Virus record (IMG/VR): IMGVR_UViG_3300035664_000064
Location: 1 to 29,466 of that record
Strand: one strand, 5' to 3'
Length of the DNA stretch: 29,466 nt
Source of the DNA: a virus
In this document: one piece after another, positions 1 through 26,302 of the stretch
How the letters are laid out: each line of letters begins with the position of its first letter
How positions within the stretch are numbered: the first letter of the stretch is position 1
Made by a program: the position numbers and the translations under genes
The notes under the pieces: model-generated
Seen by the model: the letters and a program-made list of their open reading frames with translations, nothing else
Databases searched by the model: none
Told to the model about the DNA's origin: nothing

Positions 1-821
1 ATCGCCTGGCCGATGTTCGCTCCCCCGATGTCTCCGACTAGCGTCGTGAACTGCTCGGAGATCGCGGTGATCGCCGGGGCGAGGTACGCGACGACTTGCT
101 GGACGACCCCCTCGATCGACTTCGAGACCATCGTAAACGAGTCGTTCATCGCCTCGACGTTCTGGCCCTGGGCGTTCGTTAGCGTCAGCCCGAGTCGCTC
201 GGCCTGCTCGCGAGCGGCCGCGATCCCTTCAGCCCCGCCGGAGAAGAGCGGGAGCAGCTCGGCCCCGGCCCTGCCGAAGATCTGGACGGCAGCCGCGGCC
301 CGCTGGGCCTCGGTCGGCAGGGCCGCGATCGAGGACGCGATCGCGTCGAAACGATCGGCGGCCGACATCGCGTTCAACTGCTCCACCGATAGGCCGAGGC
401 CGGCGAAGGCGGCCGTCGCGACCTCCGATCCGCCGGCCGCCTTCGCGAACGCGATCTCGGCCTTCTGTGAGGCCTTGCCGATCGTGTCCATGGAGACACC
501 CGCCAGGTCTGCCGCGAGCGATAGGCCTGCGAACTCTCCGTAGGTCATGCCCAGCCGGGCGGCGAGTTTGCTCGCGTTGTCGACTACGTCGGCCTGTGAC
601 TGGCCGAACGAGATCAGACTCCGGACGCCAGACGCGGCCGCGGAGGCGACCGACGCGAAGAGCTGCGTCACGTTCACCGCGACGAGGGTCTTCATCGCAG
701 ACTCTAGCCCCTTCGTATCCGACTGGAGGCTACGAAACGACGAGGAGGCGGCCTTCACTCCGGACGTGAGTCCGGACGTGGACGCGGTGAATACGGCCGA
801 CACTTTTCCGATCGACGCCAC
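1..821 (-). CDS. Tail tape measure protein, N-terminal part (runs off the left edge)
   Basis: The frame is open from a GTG at 821 to the window edge, giving about 273 residues with no stop. The GTG follows a strong GGAGG five bases upstream and lies one base after the stop of the frameshifted chaperone, so this start is well supported. The protein is Ala/Ser-rich and mostly helical, with segments such as SQADVVDNASKLAARLG and a Gln-rich stretch. These are typical of the N-terminal part of phage tape measure proteins, which set tail length and are threaded inside the tail tube. Its place directly after a frameshifted tail assembly chaperone is the standard position in siphoviruses. The C-terminal two thirds or more are missing because of the window edge, not because of a mutation. 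Confidence 0.85.
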   Translation of the reverse strand, partial: MASIGKVSAVFTASTSGLTSGVKAASSSFRSLQSDTKGLESAMKTLVAVNVTQLFASVASAAASGVRSLISFGQSQADVVDNASKLAARLGMTYGEFAGLSLAADLAGVSMDTIGKASQKAEIAFAKAAGGSEVATAAFAGLGLSVEQLNAMSAADRFDAIASSIAALPTEAQRAAAAVQIFGRAGAELLPLFSGGAEGIAAAREQAERLGLTLTNAQGQNVEAMNDSFTMVSKSIEGVVQQVVAYLAPAITAISEQFTTLVGDIGGANIGQA

Positions 822-822
822 A

Positions 823-1463
823 CTAGCCTCCTTCCTTGGTCCAGCCCTTCAGCTTCTCCGCGATCTCGTCCTCGGTCATCTCCCGGTCGGGGTCATAGTT
901 CGGAAGGAACACGTCGACGAAGTCGGACCCCGGCTTCGCACCGAGGGCCGCGATCGTGAACATGGTCGCCCGTGCCTCTCGGAGCCAGTCCTCGCCAAAT
1001 GGCTCGACGCGATAGTAGGCGATCCATCGGTGAAGCTGGTCGAGAGTTAGTTCGCGTTTCCATGTTTCAACGTTTCCGATCCCTAAGTGGGCCGCCAGAC
1101 GGTAGACGAATCGGTCGACGCGTCCCGTCTGGCTCCTTAGTTTTTTTCGATCTCTCCCACGACTTGGTCGTCGGACAGGAGGACCGTCGCCCAGGCCTTC
1201 TTGTAGAGCCACATCACTCGACGGTGGCTCGCGAGCATGACCTTCGACGCCTCGGACCCGAGCGGCTTTCCGCTCGCGTCGCAGAGGCAGGTGGCGAGCG
1301 TCTTCACGATCAGCTCGGCCGGAGGAGCGCCGCCGTCGAGGTCCCTGTGAGCCATCGCCAGGCCGTGCCATTCGGCGAACGTCGGATAGCGGAAGTAGAC
1401 CGGCTCGCTATAGCCGGGCGGATTCACGAGGAGCGTTTCGGAGATATTGTCGAGGAGGCTCAT
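823..1463 (-). CDS. Tail assembly chaperone, long form made by -1 ribosomal frameshift (G-T type fusion)
   Basis: This is the predicted fusion of the 108-residue short chaperone with a second frame that runs to a stop at 823. Ribosomes slipping by -1 on the A-AAA-AAC heptamer at 1140-1146 would continue as KKLRSQTGRVDRFVYRL and finish with KLKGWTKEGG, about 213 residues in all. The second frame has no convincing start of its own: its nominal upstream extension is Arg-rich shadow sequence antisense to nothing conserved. In lambda and many other phages the equivalent gpG and gpGT bind the tape measure protein and recruit tail tube subunits. The long form is made at a low ratio. The tape measure gene follows two bases downstream, as expected. 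Confidence 0.85.
1094..1146 (-). promoter_or_regulatory. Programmed -1 frameshift signal: slippery heptamer plus stem-loop
   Basis: On the minus strand the end of the short chaperone reads GAA AAA AAC TAA. The heptamer A-AAA-AAC (1146-1140) is a classic -1 slippery site in the correct phase. After a 6-base spacer comes GCCAGACGG (1133-1125). It pairs perfectly with CCGTCTGGC (1102-1094) as a 9-bp stem closing a 22-base loop. A GGGAG Shine-Dalgarno-like stretch lies a few bases upstream of the heptamer and could also stimulate slippage. Spacing and phase match known bacterial -1 frameshift elements. Confidence 0.85.
1137..1463 (-). CDS. Tail assembly chaperone, short form (gpG-like)
   Basis: A 108-residue protein starting MSLLDNISETLL and ending in VVGEIEKN at a TAA placed just after the slippery site. 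It starts at an ATG that overlaps the stop of the preceding gene (ATGA), which suggests translational coupling. The sequence has an N-terminal region with FRYPTFAEWHGLAM and a helical C-terminal half, like the short tail chaperones of siphoviruses. I cannot identify an exact family by eye. The call rests on position before the tape measure gene and on the frameshift architecture. Most translation should end here, giving an excess of short over long form. Confidence 0.8.
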   Translation of the reverse strand: MSLLDNISETLLVNPPGYSEPVYFRYPTFAEWHGLAMAHRDLDGGAPPAELIVKTLATCLCDASGKPLGSEASKVMLASHRRVMWLYKKAWATVLLSDDQVVGEIEKN

Positions 1464-6472: not shown

Positions 6473-7603
6473 TCACGGGGCGAGTGTGAACGTGTGTGGA
6501 GCGAACCAGTCGGCGATCGTTTCGGGCGGGGCCGGCGTCAGCCAGTTTCCGTTATGGAGGTCACGCCAGCCGAAGCCGGCGACGGAGCCGACCGCGAAGG
6601 AGTCCTTCGCCCGGAGCATGGATTCCACGACGGGCCGCGTCACCCAGAACGAGCCGTCGGGCTGGTCGGCCGGGAACTTGCCGCGGTAGGTGATCCATCG
6701 GGGTCCCCAGCTATTCAAACACAGGAGAGCGTCCGACGGTGATCCGTTCGCCTGGTAGCGGACCGCGACGAAACACATCTGGTGAGCCCACTGGCCGGAG
6801 GCGGCCGCGTAGCCCTGAGCGTTGGTCGTGCTCGCGAAGCCTTGCATCGAAGCCACAGGCACGGGGAACCCGGCCTCGATCGCGGCGGCAGCCTCGGCCC
6901 AGGTGGTCACGAGCGCGACATGGGCGGCCGGGTGCTTCTTCGCGATCGCGTCGAGCTTCCCGCCGTCTCCTTGGCCGCCACATCCGTAGGCTCCCCAGTC
7001 CTTCGCTCGGTTCGCGGAGTAGGCCGAGAGGTCGTAGCGGTCGAACTTCTCGCGGTAGACGACGCCCCAGTCGCGGACGAACCGAGCGGCCGCGGCCCCA
7101 TACGATCCGTCGGAGTAGCCGCCGACCGGCGACGAGCCGTCACCTGATCGGCCGCGGGCCTCGACGCGAGAGCCTCCATAGATTGCCTCGGTGCTCGGGA
7201 ACGACGGAGGCTCCGCGAGGCGGCCCGTCTCCCAGTCGACGGCCTGGGCGATCCATACGCCGTGAGCCCAGCCCCAGGAAACGCAATCCCCGATCCCCTG
7301 GCGTTCGCAGACCCAGGGCTTCCCGTAGCGAGCCAGGTGAGCGCGAGCCGCGGAGCGATAGAGGAACGTGTCGACGCCTTTCGCCTCGCGGACCGTCTCG
7401 GCTCCGGCGTCGCGAAACAGCGGCTGGGGCAGCTCCGCGAGGAATCGCTCGACGCCTTGCGGGTCTGGACGGTAGCCGAAGTTTTCGTCCCCCGGCCAGC
7501 CGGCAGGGCCGGGGCCGCGGTCGAGCCCGGCGACGATCGCGGCGGCCGCGAGCCCCAAGAGCAGAGCGACAGCCAGCCAGCGAAGAGCGTTAGCGCGAGG
7601 CAT
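6473..7603 (-). CDS. Signal-anchored papain-like (C1A-type) cysteine peptidase
   Basis: A 376-residue protein. Residues ~9-27 (WLAVALLLGLAAAAIVAGL) form a signal or signal-anchor segment, so the catalytic part should be outside the cytoplasm or membrane-bound. The catalytic domain has the papain elements in order: Gln102 and Cys107 in RQGIGDCVSWGWAHG, His274 in GQWAHQMCFVAV, and Asn297 in LCLNSWGPRW (the NSWG box). All catalytic residues are present, so it is probably active. It overlaps the next upstream membrane protein gene and lies in the cassette between protease and capsid. Peptidases of this type are unusual in tailed phages. It could cleave envelope or surface proteins during lysis or act on virion proteins; the N-terminal anchor favours the envelope. 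Confidence 0.85.
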   Translation of the reverse strand: MPRANALRWLAVALLLGLAAAAIVAGLDRGPGPAGWPGDENFGYRPDPQGVERFLAELPQPLFRDAGAETVREAKGVDTFLYRSAARAHLARYGKPWVCERQGIGDCVSWGWAHGVWIAQAVDWETGRLAEPPSFPSTEAIYGGSRVEARGRSGDGSSPVGGYSDGSYGAAAARFVRDWGVVYREKFDRYDLSAYSANRAKDWGAYGCGGQGDGGKLDAIAKKHPAAHVALVTTWAEAAAAIEAGFPVPVASMQGFASTTNAQGYAAASGQWAHQMCFVAVRYQANGSPSDALLCLNSWGPRWITYRGKFPADQPDGSFWVTRPVVESMLRAKDSFAVGSVAGFGWRDLHNGNWLTPAPPETIADWFAPHTFTLAP

Positions 7604-13453: not shown

Positions 13454-13886
13454 GGTTGACCTCCATCCCAGCACGGGCCGACGGCGTCAGGCCGTATTCC
13501 TGCTCGATCCTGAGCATCGAGTGGGCCAGCTTGACGAACATCGTCGCGGCCGGCGTCGATTGCATGTATTTCACCTTCCCGTCCTTGTCGCGGATCACGA
13601 GCACGTCGAGCCCGCGACGGATCTGGTCGAGGTAGCGGACCCACTGCTCGTACATGGCACAGTAGCGGCCGATCGCTTCGACATCGGCCGGCGTGATCAG
13701 GCCCATCGCTTCGAGCTGCGGAACGACCTCGTCCCACTTCTCGCGAGCCTTGCCCGTCACCCAAGCCGGGGCGACGACGGCCCCGGCCGGCGGGACCGGC
13801 TCGTCGGCGTGCTTGCCTTCTTTCGACGGGTCGCCCCGCAGAAGGCGGAGAGCTGTCGGTTGTTTACGCGGTCCGCGTTTTCCCAC
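13404..13886 (-). CDS. terS: Terminase small subunit, P27 family
   Basis: A 160-residue protein with the P27-family N-terminus MGKRGPRKQPTALRLLRGDPSK. A Pro-rich linker (EPVPPAGAVVAPAW) follows, then a helical core TGKAREKWDEVVPQLEAMGLITPADVEAIGRYCAMYEQW. It recognises phage DNA and loads it on the large subunit. It overlaps the methyltransferase end by 23 bases and the TerL start by about 50 bases, so all three are translated from one message. Confidence 0.92.
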   Translation of the reverse strand: MGKRGPRKQPTALRLLRGDPSKEGKHADEPVPPAGAVVAPAWVTGKAREKWDEVVPQLEAMGLITPADVEAIGRYCAMYEQWVRYLDQIRRGLDVLVIRDKDGKVKYMQSTPAATMFVKLAHSMLRIEQEYGLTPSARAGMEVNRGEIKDTLQAFIEGRA

Positions 13887-15183
13887 TGGGGGCCTCCTCG
13901 CGTGTGGCCTTCTTGCCGGTCAGCGTTTCCCACCGCCTGACGATCACGTCGCAGTAGGCCGGCGAGATCTCCATGCCGTAGCACTTGCGGCCCAGTTGCT
14001 CGGCGGCGATGAGCGTCGTGCCGGAGCCGCAGAAGGGCTCGTAGACGTTCCCTCCATCGGAGCAACAAGCCGCGATGTATGCCGCCGGAAAAGCGACCGG
14101 GAACATCGCCGGGTGTTTGTCCAGTTCTTTATCTCGCGACTTCACTACATCGCACCTAAACACGGTGCCCAACTGGCGGAGCTTGGACGTTGTGCTTTCG
14201 GCTGGTGTGGTTGATCCGTCTTCTTGTCGACGGGTGCCTTCCGTTTTCCTTCCGGCTGTTTTGTTTGGGACAGTTTTGTTTAGCGTTCGAGACTCCCTTC
14301 CGAACACGAACACAAACTCATGATCTATCGTGAACATGGCGGTCGCCTGCCCGATCGTGTAGCCAAATCCAGAGCGGTCCCATACGTTCCAGCTCAGCAG
14401 ACCGAGGCCGCACGACTCGGCGGCCGATATGTAGTGATCCCAATACCGAACGACTACGCCCCTATCTCGCTTCATCCCAAGATTCACGCAGACCAGATCG
14501 GCGTATGGTTGCGACTGCGTAATAAACGCCGATAGTTTTTCTGGCGAGAGGTCGGAGTTTCCGTCGTACGATCTCTGGTCGGAGTAGGGCGGAGACGTGA
14601 ACAGGATGTCGATATTCGCCCCCGCCATCAGCCGCTCGACATCCTCCGCCTTCGTCGAGTCGCCGCAGAGCAGGCGATGTTCCCCAAGGATCCACAGGTC
14701 GCCCGGCTTCGTGATCGGATCGACCGGCGGATCGGGGACCTCGTCCTCGACGATTTCCTTTGCGTCGTCCTGGTAGAGCTCGGCCGCCTCGGCCAGGTCC
14801 GCGTACATCTGCTGGAGCCCTTCGCTCCCCGTGTCGACTTCGCGGAGGAGGGCGTCGAGGGCGACGGCGTTCGTCTCGGCCAGGGCCGCGAGCGGGTCTA
14901 GCGAAAGGAGCAGCTTGTCGGCCTCGGCCTCGTCGATGTCGAGGACCAGGACCGGGACCTCCTGGTCGGGCGTGGTCTCGGCCCGCAGGTGACCGTCGAC
15001 CAGGATCAGGGAGCCGTCGGGCAGCTCGCGGGCGAGCAGGGCGTCGGCGTAGCCGACTTCTGCCAGGATCCCGCGGAGGGCGTCGGCCTGGGCCTTCGGG
15101 TGGGTTCGCCAGTTTTTCGGGTTCGGCGTCAGGTCGCCGGCCCGGACGCGGCGTAGTTCGCGGACGCGGTCTCGGATCTGCAT
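13864..15183 (-). CDS. ParB-like domain fused to beta-class DNA methyltransferase
   Basis: A 439-residue protein. Residues ~1-95 form a ParB/sulfiredoxin-like domain (DLTPNPKNWRTHP, then LILVDGHLRAE). The rest is an N6-adenine or N4-cytosine methyltransferase with motif IV TSPPY at ~196-200 and motif I EPFCGSGT at ~382-389. The order IV, recognition domain, I is the beta class. No cognate restriction enzyme is adjacent, so it may be an orphan that protects phage DNA or marks it for packaging. The stretch coding the recognition domain (about 14100-14560) is clearly AT-richer than its flanks (29 of 60 bases are G or C in 14221-14280), which suggests domain swapping. A promoter-like element lies directly upstream. 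Confidence 0.93.
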   Translation of the reverse strand: MQIRDRVRELRRVRAGDLTPNPKNWRTHPKAQADALRGILAEVGYADALLARELPDGSLILVDGHLRAETTPDQEVPVLVLDIDEAEADKLLLSLDPLAALAETNAVALDALLREVDTGSEGLQQMYADLAEAAELYQDDAKEIVEDEVPDPPVDPITKPGDLWILGEHRLLCGDSTKAEDVERLMAGANIDILFTSPPYSDQRSYDGNSDLSPEKLSAFITQSQPYADLVCVNLGMKRDRGVVVRYWDHYISAAESCGLGLLSWNVWDRSGFGYTIGQATAMFTIDHEFVFVFGRESRTLNKTVPNKTAGRKTEGTRRQEDGSTTPAESTTSKLRQLGTVFRCDVVKSRDKELDKHPAMFPVAFPAAYIAACCSDGGNVYEPFCGSGTTLIAAEQLGRKCYGMEISPAYCDVIVRRWETLTGKKATREEAPSGKTRTA

Positions 15184-16836: not shown

Positions 16837-17162
16837 GAGATTTCAGACCCGAAGAGCGAGAACGACAGCGAGGCCGAGGACGCGTAGACGGTCACAACAT
16901 CCGTGGTCGCCAGCGTGATACCGAGCGTCAGGAATGCGGAGTCGTTCGCAGTCAGCGACGAGTCGAAAACGAGGTAATGAGTCGCCGCCAGCGTCGCCCC
17001 GGCAGGCCGGACGGCGACACGGAACGTCGCGGACGACGCTCCCTGGTTGCAGACGGAGAGCGTCGAGGCGACGGCCGACGTAGCGGACGGCACGGTGTAG
17101 AGCGTTGTCGCCGTGGTCGCGGATGGATTCGACTGCCCCAACACTTTGTAGGCGGACGGCAT
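16833..17162 (-). CDS. Small beta-rich tail/fibre-associated protein, 109 aa
   Basis: A 109-residue protein starting MPSAYKVLGQSNPSATTATTL, with TFRVAVRPAGA and TDVVTVYASSASLSFSLFG near the end. I recall very similar short proteins beside tail fibre genes in several phage groups, where they are probably virion components. It forms a beta-sandwich by composition. Its ATG overlaps the collagen-like gene's stop as TAATG, so the two are translated together. Confidence 0.7.
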   Translation of the reverse strand: MPSAYKVLGQSNPSATTATTLYTVPSATSAVASTLSVCNQGASSATFRVAVRPAGATLAATHYLVFDSSLTANDSAFLTLGITLATTDVVTVYASSASLSFSLFGSEIS

Positions 17163-18079
17163 TACAGGCCCCCGAGGAGAAACGGATGGACGAACGACTC
17201 GACCGACTGCTGAGCGTTCGTGGATAGTCGCGAGTCTGAGAGCGTGCCGCTCGTGATGTCGCTCGCGGCGTGGACGTGGCTCGTCGGCGTCCTCGCGTCG
17301 GACAGCCGCGAGTCGTTCCCCTGGCAGGCCGTGCCGGCCGTCGTCCCGTAGGTCACGCCTCCGAGCGTCGAGGTCGTCGCGGCCGGCAGCGTGTAGGTCG
17401 AGATCGCGGCCCAGGTCTGGTCGCCGCGGAGGTAGGTCGAGGCCGAGGCGGTGCCGGAGGCCAGGCGGGCGGTCGGGATCGTGCCGGTGAGATTTGTCGC
17501 GTCCACAGCCCCACTAAAAGCTGCGGCCTCGATCACTCCTGGCGTCTGCACGTCGCCGAGAGCGTTCACCGAAAAAACCGAGGCGGCGTCGTATGTGACC
17601 GAGAACGGAACCAAGTCCGCTGGAAAGTTTCCAGCGGTTACGTTTGGCGGCGATACCGTCACCGCCGAAGGTGCGACGGCCTGTCCGGAAACCACCTCCG
17701 CTATCGTGCCGGTCGAAAGTTTTCCGCCGGTCGTGGTCGTGACTATCCGCCCCGACACCGTGCCGACCGTGATCGGGTCGGACCCGGCCGAGGCATGGCT
17801 TGACGCGTGGGTCGACGGCGAGAACGTCGCGGGCTTGTCGGTGATCCCGGCCCAGGTCGTCGTCCCGGCCGGACCCGTGGCCCCGGTGGCTCCGGTGGCC
17901 CCAGGCGATCCCGTGGCCCCCGCAGGCCCGGTCGCTCCCGCCGGACCCGTCGCTCCAGTCGCGCCGGTGGCCCCGGTCGGACCGGCAGGCCCGACGCCTC
18001 CAGAGACCGACGCGTTCACCGTCTGGCCGCTGGTGGAGACCTGGACGTTCTGATCGGTGACGTTTACTTCGATCGGCAT
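17162..18079 (-). CDS. Collagen-like tail fibre protein, 305 aa
   Basis: A 305-residue protein whose ATG at 18079 overlaps the previous stop (TGATG). Residues ~30-71 are 14 uninterrupted Gly-X-Y triplets (GPAGPTGATGATG pattern), expected to form a trimeric collagen-like rod. After it come phage-fibre repeats: THASSHASAGSDPI, LASGTASASTYLRGDQTWA and, near the end, DARTPTSHVHAASDITSGTL, a phrase common in tail fibres. The fold is therefore N-terminal attachment, collagen stalk and a C-terminal fibre part. The cassette sits before the terminase genes, not after the tail genes. Confidence 0.85.
   Translation of the reverse strand: MPIEVNVTDQNVQVSTSGQTVNASVSGGVGPAGPTGATGATGATGPAGATGPAGATGSPGATGATGATGPAGTTTWAGITDKPATFSPSTHASSHASAGSDPITVGTVSGRIVTTTTGGKLSTGTIAEVVSGQAVAPSAVTVSPPNVTAGNFPADLVPFSVTYDAASVFSVNALGDVQTPGVIEAAAFSGAVDATNLTGTIPTARLASGTASASTYLRGDQTWAAISTYTLPAATTSTLGGVTYGTTAGTACQGNDSRLSDARTPTSHVHAASDITSGTLSDSRLSTNAQQSVESFVHPFLLGGL
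17867..17992 (-). repeat. Collagen-like Gly-X-Y repeat tract
   Basis: This stretch codes for 14 successive Gly-X-Y triplets, mostly GAT, GPA and GPT, from nearly identical GC-rich 9-base units. Such repeats recombine easily and can change fibre length between relatives. Confidence 0.9.
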
Positions 18080-18399
18080 CAGCGGACGACCTCCCAGATC
18101 CCCTCGAGGGCCGTCTGGGCGTTGCCAGCGGCCGGCGTCCAGACGAGACGCCACAGATACGTCCCGGCCGCCACGTTCGCCGCGGCAGCGGCCGACAGCC
18201 CGACGTTCACCTGGCCGGTCGCGAGATTCACCGTCGACACCGTCAGGGCCTGGACGGTCGCGAACGTCACGGCCGACACGATCTCGGCCGAGAATGTGTA
18301 GCCGGTGAGGGCGATCGAGAAGTCGAGCAGTTGCGACACGGCCTGGCCTTGCTTCACGATGATGTTCAGCGTGCCGGGCGTTGCGGATACGGTAGCCAT
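18079..18399 (-). CDS. Putative fibre attachment or baseplate beta protein, 106 aa
   Basis: A 106-residue protein starting MATVSATPGTLNIIVKQG. The pattern 'QGQAVSQLLDFSIALTGYTFSAEIV' is like N-terminal domains of baseplate/fibre proteins that start with 'qGatfs..i.l.d.tGytf.a.i', and it ends YLWRLVWTPAAGN...GIWEVV. It is probably a virion adaptor that holds the collagen-like fibre. A promoter-like sequence lies just upstream, with its -10 only 8 bases from the ATG. The message could then be nearly leaderless, and no good ribosome binding site is visible. Confidence 0.6.
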   Translation of the reverse strand: MATVSATPGTLNIIVKQGQAVSQLLDFSIALTGYTFSAEIVSAVTFATVQALTVSTVNLATGQVNVGLSAAAAANVAAGTYLWRLVWTPAAGNAQTALEGIWEVVR

Positions 18400-25288: not shown

Positions 25289-26302
25289 ATGCGTTCTATG
25301 TTGCTTCGTGATGCGTTTCGTCGGTATGCCTTGCTCCGTGAGTTGAAGCCCAACACGGTTTCGCACTACAGGATGCTCTTCGATCGTCTGGAGCGATTCT
25401 TGAAACGACCGCCGACGGTCGGGGACCTCGAGGACGTGGTCGTCGCGGAGTATTTGGAATGGCGACGACTGACACCTGGTTGGCGTGATCGCCTGCCGAA
25501 GCCGGCCACGATCCGGAAGGACCGGAACATGATCCGGGCCGTCTGGGAATACCTCGCCCGTAAGAAAATCACTACAGAGTTTCCCGAGGTCCCGAAGGTC
25601 AAGGTCCCGAAGACGATCCCTCTCGGTCGTGCCTACACGGCCGACGAGGTCGGCTCCCTGATCAGGGCAGCGAAGCGTCGAATCGGAAGGACGGGCGGCC
25701 TGCCGTCGCGCTGGTGGTGGTCGACGCTTATCTACGCGGCCGTATGCACGGGCGAGCGATTCGAGGCCCTGACATCGCTCCGCTGGGGCCAGGTGGACCT
25801 CGACCGCCGTCGCGTGATCTTCCTGGCCGGGACGCGGAAGGGCTCGACCCGCGACATCGAGAGGGCGGTGACTCCGCAGCTCGCCGCGATGCTCGCGGAG
25901 CACCGTCGCGGGCCGGACGACCTGGTCTGGCCGTGGGATCGGGCGACCCGCAGCCACTGGGCCTCTCTACAAGTCCTGTGCCGATCTGCCGGCGTCGAGT
26001 ATCGGGGGCGAGGCTTCCACGGATTCCGCCGCATGGCGGCCTCCTACGCGGCCCTGGCGGGCGGAGCCGCCGCGGCGACCCAGCTCCTCGACCACAGCGA
26101 CCCGGCACTCCAGGCGGTATATGTGGACCCGCTGATCTGCCCGCGGGACACCTGCTCGGTCGACACCCTGCCGCCGCTGGACCTGGGCGAACTCGACCCA
26201 CGACAACCGGACCAGCGGCCGACGGATTTTGAGTCCGCCGGCCGCGGTCCGTCTACGTCAACGGTAGCGGATCACCGCGTACCACCGACGCGTAACCGGT
26301 GA
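25289..26302 (+). CDS. int: Tyrosine site-specific integrase
   Basis: A 337-residue protein and the only plus-strand gene. The N-terminal SAM-like/core-binding domain (~1-105: NTVSHYRMLFDRLERFL, TIRKDRNMIRAVWEYLARK) is followed by the catalytic domain with all active residues: Arg157 (CTGERFEALTSLRW), Lys184 (GTRKGS), His244 and Arg247 (FHGFRRMAAS), His269 (LLDHSD) and Tyr278 (AVYVD). It inserts and, with an excisionase, removes the phage genome. The ATG at 25289 has an AAAAAAGGAAG stretch upstream. About 55 residues past the Tyr form an unusual Pro/Asp-rich tail. The last 45 bases overlap a convergent gene. Confidence 0.95.
   Translation: MRSMLLRDAFRRYALLRELKPNTVSHYRMLFDRLERFLKRPPTVGDLEDVVVAEYLEWRRLTPGWRDRLPKPATIRKDRNMIRAVWEYLARKKITTEFPEVPKVKVPKTIPLGRAYTADEVGSLIRAAKRRIGRTGGLPSRWWWSTLIYAAVCTGERFEALTSLRWGQVDLDRRRVIFLAGTRKGSTRDIERAVTPQLAAMLAEHRRGPDDLVWPWDRATRSHWASLQVLCRSAGVEYRGRGFHGFRRMAASYAALAGGAAAATQLLDHSDPALQAVYVDPLICPRDTCSVDTLPPLDLGELDPRQPDQRPTDFESAGRGPSTSTVADHRVPPTRNR

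Follow-up and report, generated by a model that had tools for sequence, protein, structure and literature searches.

The window analysed here (the whole 29,466-nucleotide stretch of DNA) carries capsid, portal, terminase and prohead protease genes, and thus belongs to an HK97-like tailed phage. On its minus strand, two overlapping open reading frames (ORFs) sit immediately 5' of the tape-measure gene, giving the gene order G, T, tape measure. The zero frame is a G-like tail assembly chaperone ORF (1137..1463), which starts with ATG, encodes 108 aa and ends in VGEIEKN*. The frame at -1 relative to it is T-like (823..1143; Phage_tail_T, PF06223) and encodes the putative C-terminal part of a GT fusion. 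The tail tape measure protein (3..821, GTG start; phrog_9483, E 1e-36) is represented by its N-terminal 273 aa, as the contig ends inside the gene.

The second frame matches PF06223 with 29.7 bits (cut-off, 25.9) and PHROG 337 as well, and the Pfam family is also matched by T in 12 of 12 relatives. Searched by sequence against solved structures, T gave no match; among the genomes of cultured species, 14 pattern matches were obtained, none encoding a relative. The G protein of the window matches phrog_344 (tail assembly chaperone) weakly (E 0.02), and PHROG 344 is hit by each of the 12 family members at E values up to 0.1, the best being 8e-14. A tblastn search of G against annotated phage genomes gave no match. 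When the AlphaFold model of G (pLDDT 81) was searched with Foldseek, the top match was gp13, the tail assembly chaperone of HK97 (PDB 2ob9), which is encoded at an equal gene position; the likeness in fold is moderate (E 0.026, probability 0.99, TM ~0.5; VIA Z 6.4). In contrast, G is only 20-21% identical to gp13, and solved structures gave weak matches only by sequence, with 2ob9 not significant at E 0.7.

Anatomy of the candidate frameshift signal

The 3' end of the G-like ORF reads GTG GGA GAG ATC GAA AAA AAC TAA, in which the slippery heptamer A_AAA_AAC (1140..1146, minus strand) lies in phase (read GA|A AAA AAC) and is adjoined by the zero-frame stop TAA (1137..1139). A spacer of 6 nt, TAAGGA, which includes this stop, leads to a candidate stimulatory stem-loop (1094..1133), whose arms GCCAGACGG (1133..1125) and CCGTCTGGC (1102..1094) form nine of nine possible pairs around a 22-nt loop. 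On the other side, 7 nt 5' of the heptamer, the stretch GGGAG (1154..1158) is a candidate Shine-Dalgarno-like (SD-like) stimulator. Counted from CTA, the first codon after a slip, the -1 frame comprises 105 codons and closes with TAG at 825..823, a single base separating it from the tape-measure GTG at 821. The initial annotation had described the in-phase heptamer, the stop just past it, the 6-base spacer, the upstream GGGAG and a -1 frame of about 105 codons reaching almost to the tape measure, and all of these were recovered on the minus strand at the positions given. It was likewise right about the perfect 9-bp stem and the 22-nt loop, although this loop is not free of pairing, being partly closed by a GACG/CGTC extension and three further pairs. 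RNA folding of the hairpin yields -29.4 kcal/mol (z -2.7), with 4 of 200 dinucleotide shuffles equally good.

Within the 33 ORFs scanned (23 kb), there are eight in-phase heptamers of the general form XXXYYYZ, and A_AAA_AAC alone among them directly precedes a stop at a frame overlap. When the second frame was recoded synonymously, an equally stable stem arose in 2.1% of trials for the window, in 0.05-0.3% for the related loci L040 and L038, and in 9-19% for L044, L048, L058 and L070; single hairpins outdo synonymous recoding only moderately (0.05% to 19%). A scan of the whole window with Rfam at gathering thresholds gave no match.

Conservation of the signal in related loci

Relatives were collected by IMG/VR scans, which provided 85 loci with the junction AAAAAAC (this phage being one of them; L022-L025 were left out because G matched over 15 residues only). 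These correspond to 42 distinct junctions, counts of which ignore shared ancestry. Comparison with related phages, which the initial annotation had proposed as a check, found the heptamer in the same phase throughout: every one of the 42 distinct AAAAAAC junctions reads GAAAAAAAC, with exactly seven As each time, and the AAC form of the heptamer is fixed within the lineage. This holds while T identity among the heptamer-bearing relatives falls to 29% (L070) and that of G to about 21%. The E, K and N codons account for three of the five invariant columns in a 152-column alignment of G. Furthermore, in this phage of 66% GC, GAG outnumbers GAA by 314 to 85 and AAG outnumbers AAA by 222 to 54, roughly fourfold in each case, so GAAAAAAAC runs counter to usage. 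An SD-like 4-mer precedes the heptamer in 40 of 42 distinct junctions, as against 22.9 expected from synonymous recoding, kinship being ignored in this figure. On the other hand, the position of the stop varies, lying 0 nt past the heptamer in 14 of the 42 distinct junctions and 18-36 nt past it in the others. A distant relative of T, L069 (2440-2560), has an in-phase G_GGA_AAC at the junction, with TGA immediately after. In two further distant T relatives (L067 and L068; L067:690-800), an in-phase AAATTTA is found at the junction.

The stem is also maintained. The clade of the window keeps all nine pairs, with the middle A-U replaced by C-G through changes on both sides in L020, L040 and L041. 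Pairing is seen in 93% of the cells of 19 distinct rows; displacing the partner by 1-3 columns lowers this to 50% or less, and 1 of 500 shuffles attains the covariation score of the stem. In a sister clade, that of L044, the outer pairing adopts another register (AGCCGGT/ACCGGCT plus CAGG/CCTG), L044 itself forming all pairs. The switch of register, together with the compensatory change, indicates that a hairpin is kept at about equal distance while its letters differ. A conserved YRLA stretch of T could partly explain why the stem arms are conserved. The relatives place the signal far beyond what chance would produce, and conservation is a stronger argument than the chance tests within the window.

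Probable ribosomal frameshifting and its alternatives

A -1 ribosomal frameshift of the lambda G/GT type on A_AAA_AAC is very probably the best explanation of this arrangement, given that T belongs to PF06223 and that G matches PHROG 344 and has an HK97-like fold. The same reading had been put forward in the initial annotation, and the protein families, the gene order, the invariant heptamer, the covarying stem and the second frames that lack a start support it. That slippage occurs, how often it does so and what G and GT do are inferences, and the proposed course is as follows. A minor fraction of the ribosomes translating the G-like gene would slip back by one base at A_AAA_AAC, where the Lys and Asn tRNAs would re-pair with AAA AAA, aided by the downstream hairpin and probably also by the upstream GGGAG. 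Slipped ribosomes would bypass the TAA and continue in the T frame to yield a GT fusion some 213 aa long, while unslipped ones would terminate and release G alone. The predicted junction peptide of GT is ...EIEKKLRSQTGR (EKK-LRSQ), which only a slip would give. By analogy with lambda, G would coat the tape-measure protein and GT would recruit the major tail protein, and both would depart before completion of the tail.

The same fusion frame would result from transcriptional slippage, in which RNA polymerase adds one A within the A7 tract and the mRNA itself fuses the frames, so that the ribosome reads on without slipping. The run of seven As, which all relatives keep despite a GC-rich genome, is in line with this, but it numbers exactly seven in all the distinct junctions and is never longer, and efficient slippage by bacterial RNA polymerase usually requires a longer run. 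Moreover, polymerase slippage needs neither a downstream stem at fixed spacing nor an SD-like element, and the G_GGA_AAC that L069 carries at the equivalent place cannot slip transcriptionally; together with the immediate TGA, it argues for ribosomal over transcriptional slippage. We consider the transcriptional route improbable.

A rival without any fusion, in which T has a start of its own and is reached after G by re-initiation or internal initiation, is less probable still. In its favour, the window has 87 open codons upstream in the -1 frame, which offers an ATG at 1371 and a GTG at 1212, and annotations such as that of Moraxella phage Mcat32 give two separate CDS; yet both candidate starts are deep within G and have no Shine-Dalgarno sequence. 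More tellingly, a scan for ATG, GTG and TTG from the preceding stop to 9 codons beyond the heptamer found no start in the second frame of L040, L042, L064-L066, L070, L073, L087 and L100, so that full-length T could be reached in these nine loci only via the overlap. A separate start also leaves the invariant heptamer unexplained. Relatives without the heptamer whose two frames have starts of their own, the case that the initial annotation had named as contrary to its reading, were sought among the relatives and not found.

That a continuous GT gene was split by a sequencing or assembly error is hardly credible, since 85 loci, drawn from many metagenomes, share the two-frame layout. The one locus in which G and T are read in one frame, L083, is a singleton that has lost the whole signal through a 38-nt deletion and is otherwise nearly identical to its sister, L082. 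Over 5.3 kb, L083 and L082 are identical except for one mismatch and this deletion, which lies between CGGA repeats, takes the heptamer and the 5' stem arm, and turns the two genes into one 207-aa ORF. The fused gene (2192-2815 of IMGVR_UViG_3300044613_002271) was seen once in the collection; the deletion may be real and recent, or may have arisen at the hairpin as an error of assembly or copying.

Comparison with known systems

In lambda, where G binds the tape measure and T the tail tube protein, gpG and gpGT are made at a ratio of about 30:1, and long-tailed phages widely conserve the G/GT frameshift although their sequences are little alike (PMC5009743). The phage described here resembles lambda in the location of the signal between the major tail and tape-measure genes, the -1 direction, an XXXYYYZ heptamer near the end of G, a T protein also of PF06223, and short and fused products, which are predicted in our case. 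It differs in having A_AAA_AAC (the related lambdoid mEp390 has G_GGA_AAG), a strong hairpin and a stop directly at the site, and its G is only weakly similar in sequence. An identical heptamer has been reported as the g-t site of the haloarchaeal virus HCTV-2 (PMC5009743), a likeness recorded at the level of the heptamer; a point of difference is its archaeal host. A literature search pairing A AAA AAC with tail assembly found no paper.

The Moraxella phage Mcat32 (KR093656; L116, 1460-1510) also has GAAAAAAAC, with a stop and a hairpin behind it, and its T is 31% identical over 78% of the query, whereas its zero frame ends one codon later. Its G and T are annotated as separate genes without fusion, and the GT fusion of this phage looks unannotated. 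Outside tail genes, E. coli dnaX combines an SD-like element, an A6 slippery site and a downstream stem, the same layout as in this phage. Nevertheless, dnaX is an unrelated host gene that gives a truncated product, and its site is A_AAA_AAG (PMC5009743), with AAG in place of AAC. In E. coli, A_AAA_AAC shifts much less than A_AAA_AAG (PMC5009743), which makes the slip rate in the host of this phage uncertain. The tRNA set of that host may render the heptamer more slippery, or the hairpin may make up for it. It is conceivable, if unlikely, that A_AAA_AAC is an efficient bacterial site in the uncultured host and that some strains (L083) have lost the signal through the 38-nt deletion and live with a permanent GT fusion.

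The mechanism is a textbook one, to which this phage adds another case of the known g-t signal. With it comes an uncultured lineage of siphovirus-like type, whose g-t signal is complete and conserved to an unusual degree. As heptamer and hairpin are kept down to 29% identity in T, the family constitutes a good natural data set on frameshift signals, which could separate their fixed parts from those free to drift, stem register and stop position among them. With respect to annotation, the G and T ORFs should be joined.

Elsewhere in the window, an integrase-like protein (25289-26302, plus strand, opposite to most genes), with a match to PF00589 slightly below the cut-off, suggests a temperate phage. 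A probable tail or fibre protein with collagen-like GXX repeats (PF01391) is encoded at 17162-18154 (minus strand), and a 439-aa protein at 13864-15183 (minus strand) carries a DNA methylase domain (PF01555) in its C-terminal half, its approximately 190 N-terminal residues having no Pfam match. Finally, the 376-aa product of 6473-7603 (minus strand), also with no Pfam match, contains a protease-like GDCVSWGWAHGVW that recalls, as an impression only, papain-like enzymes.
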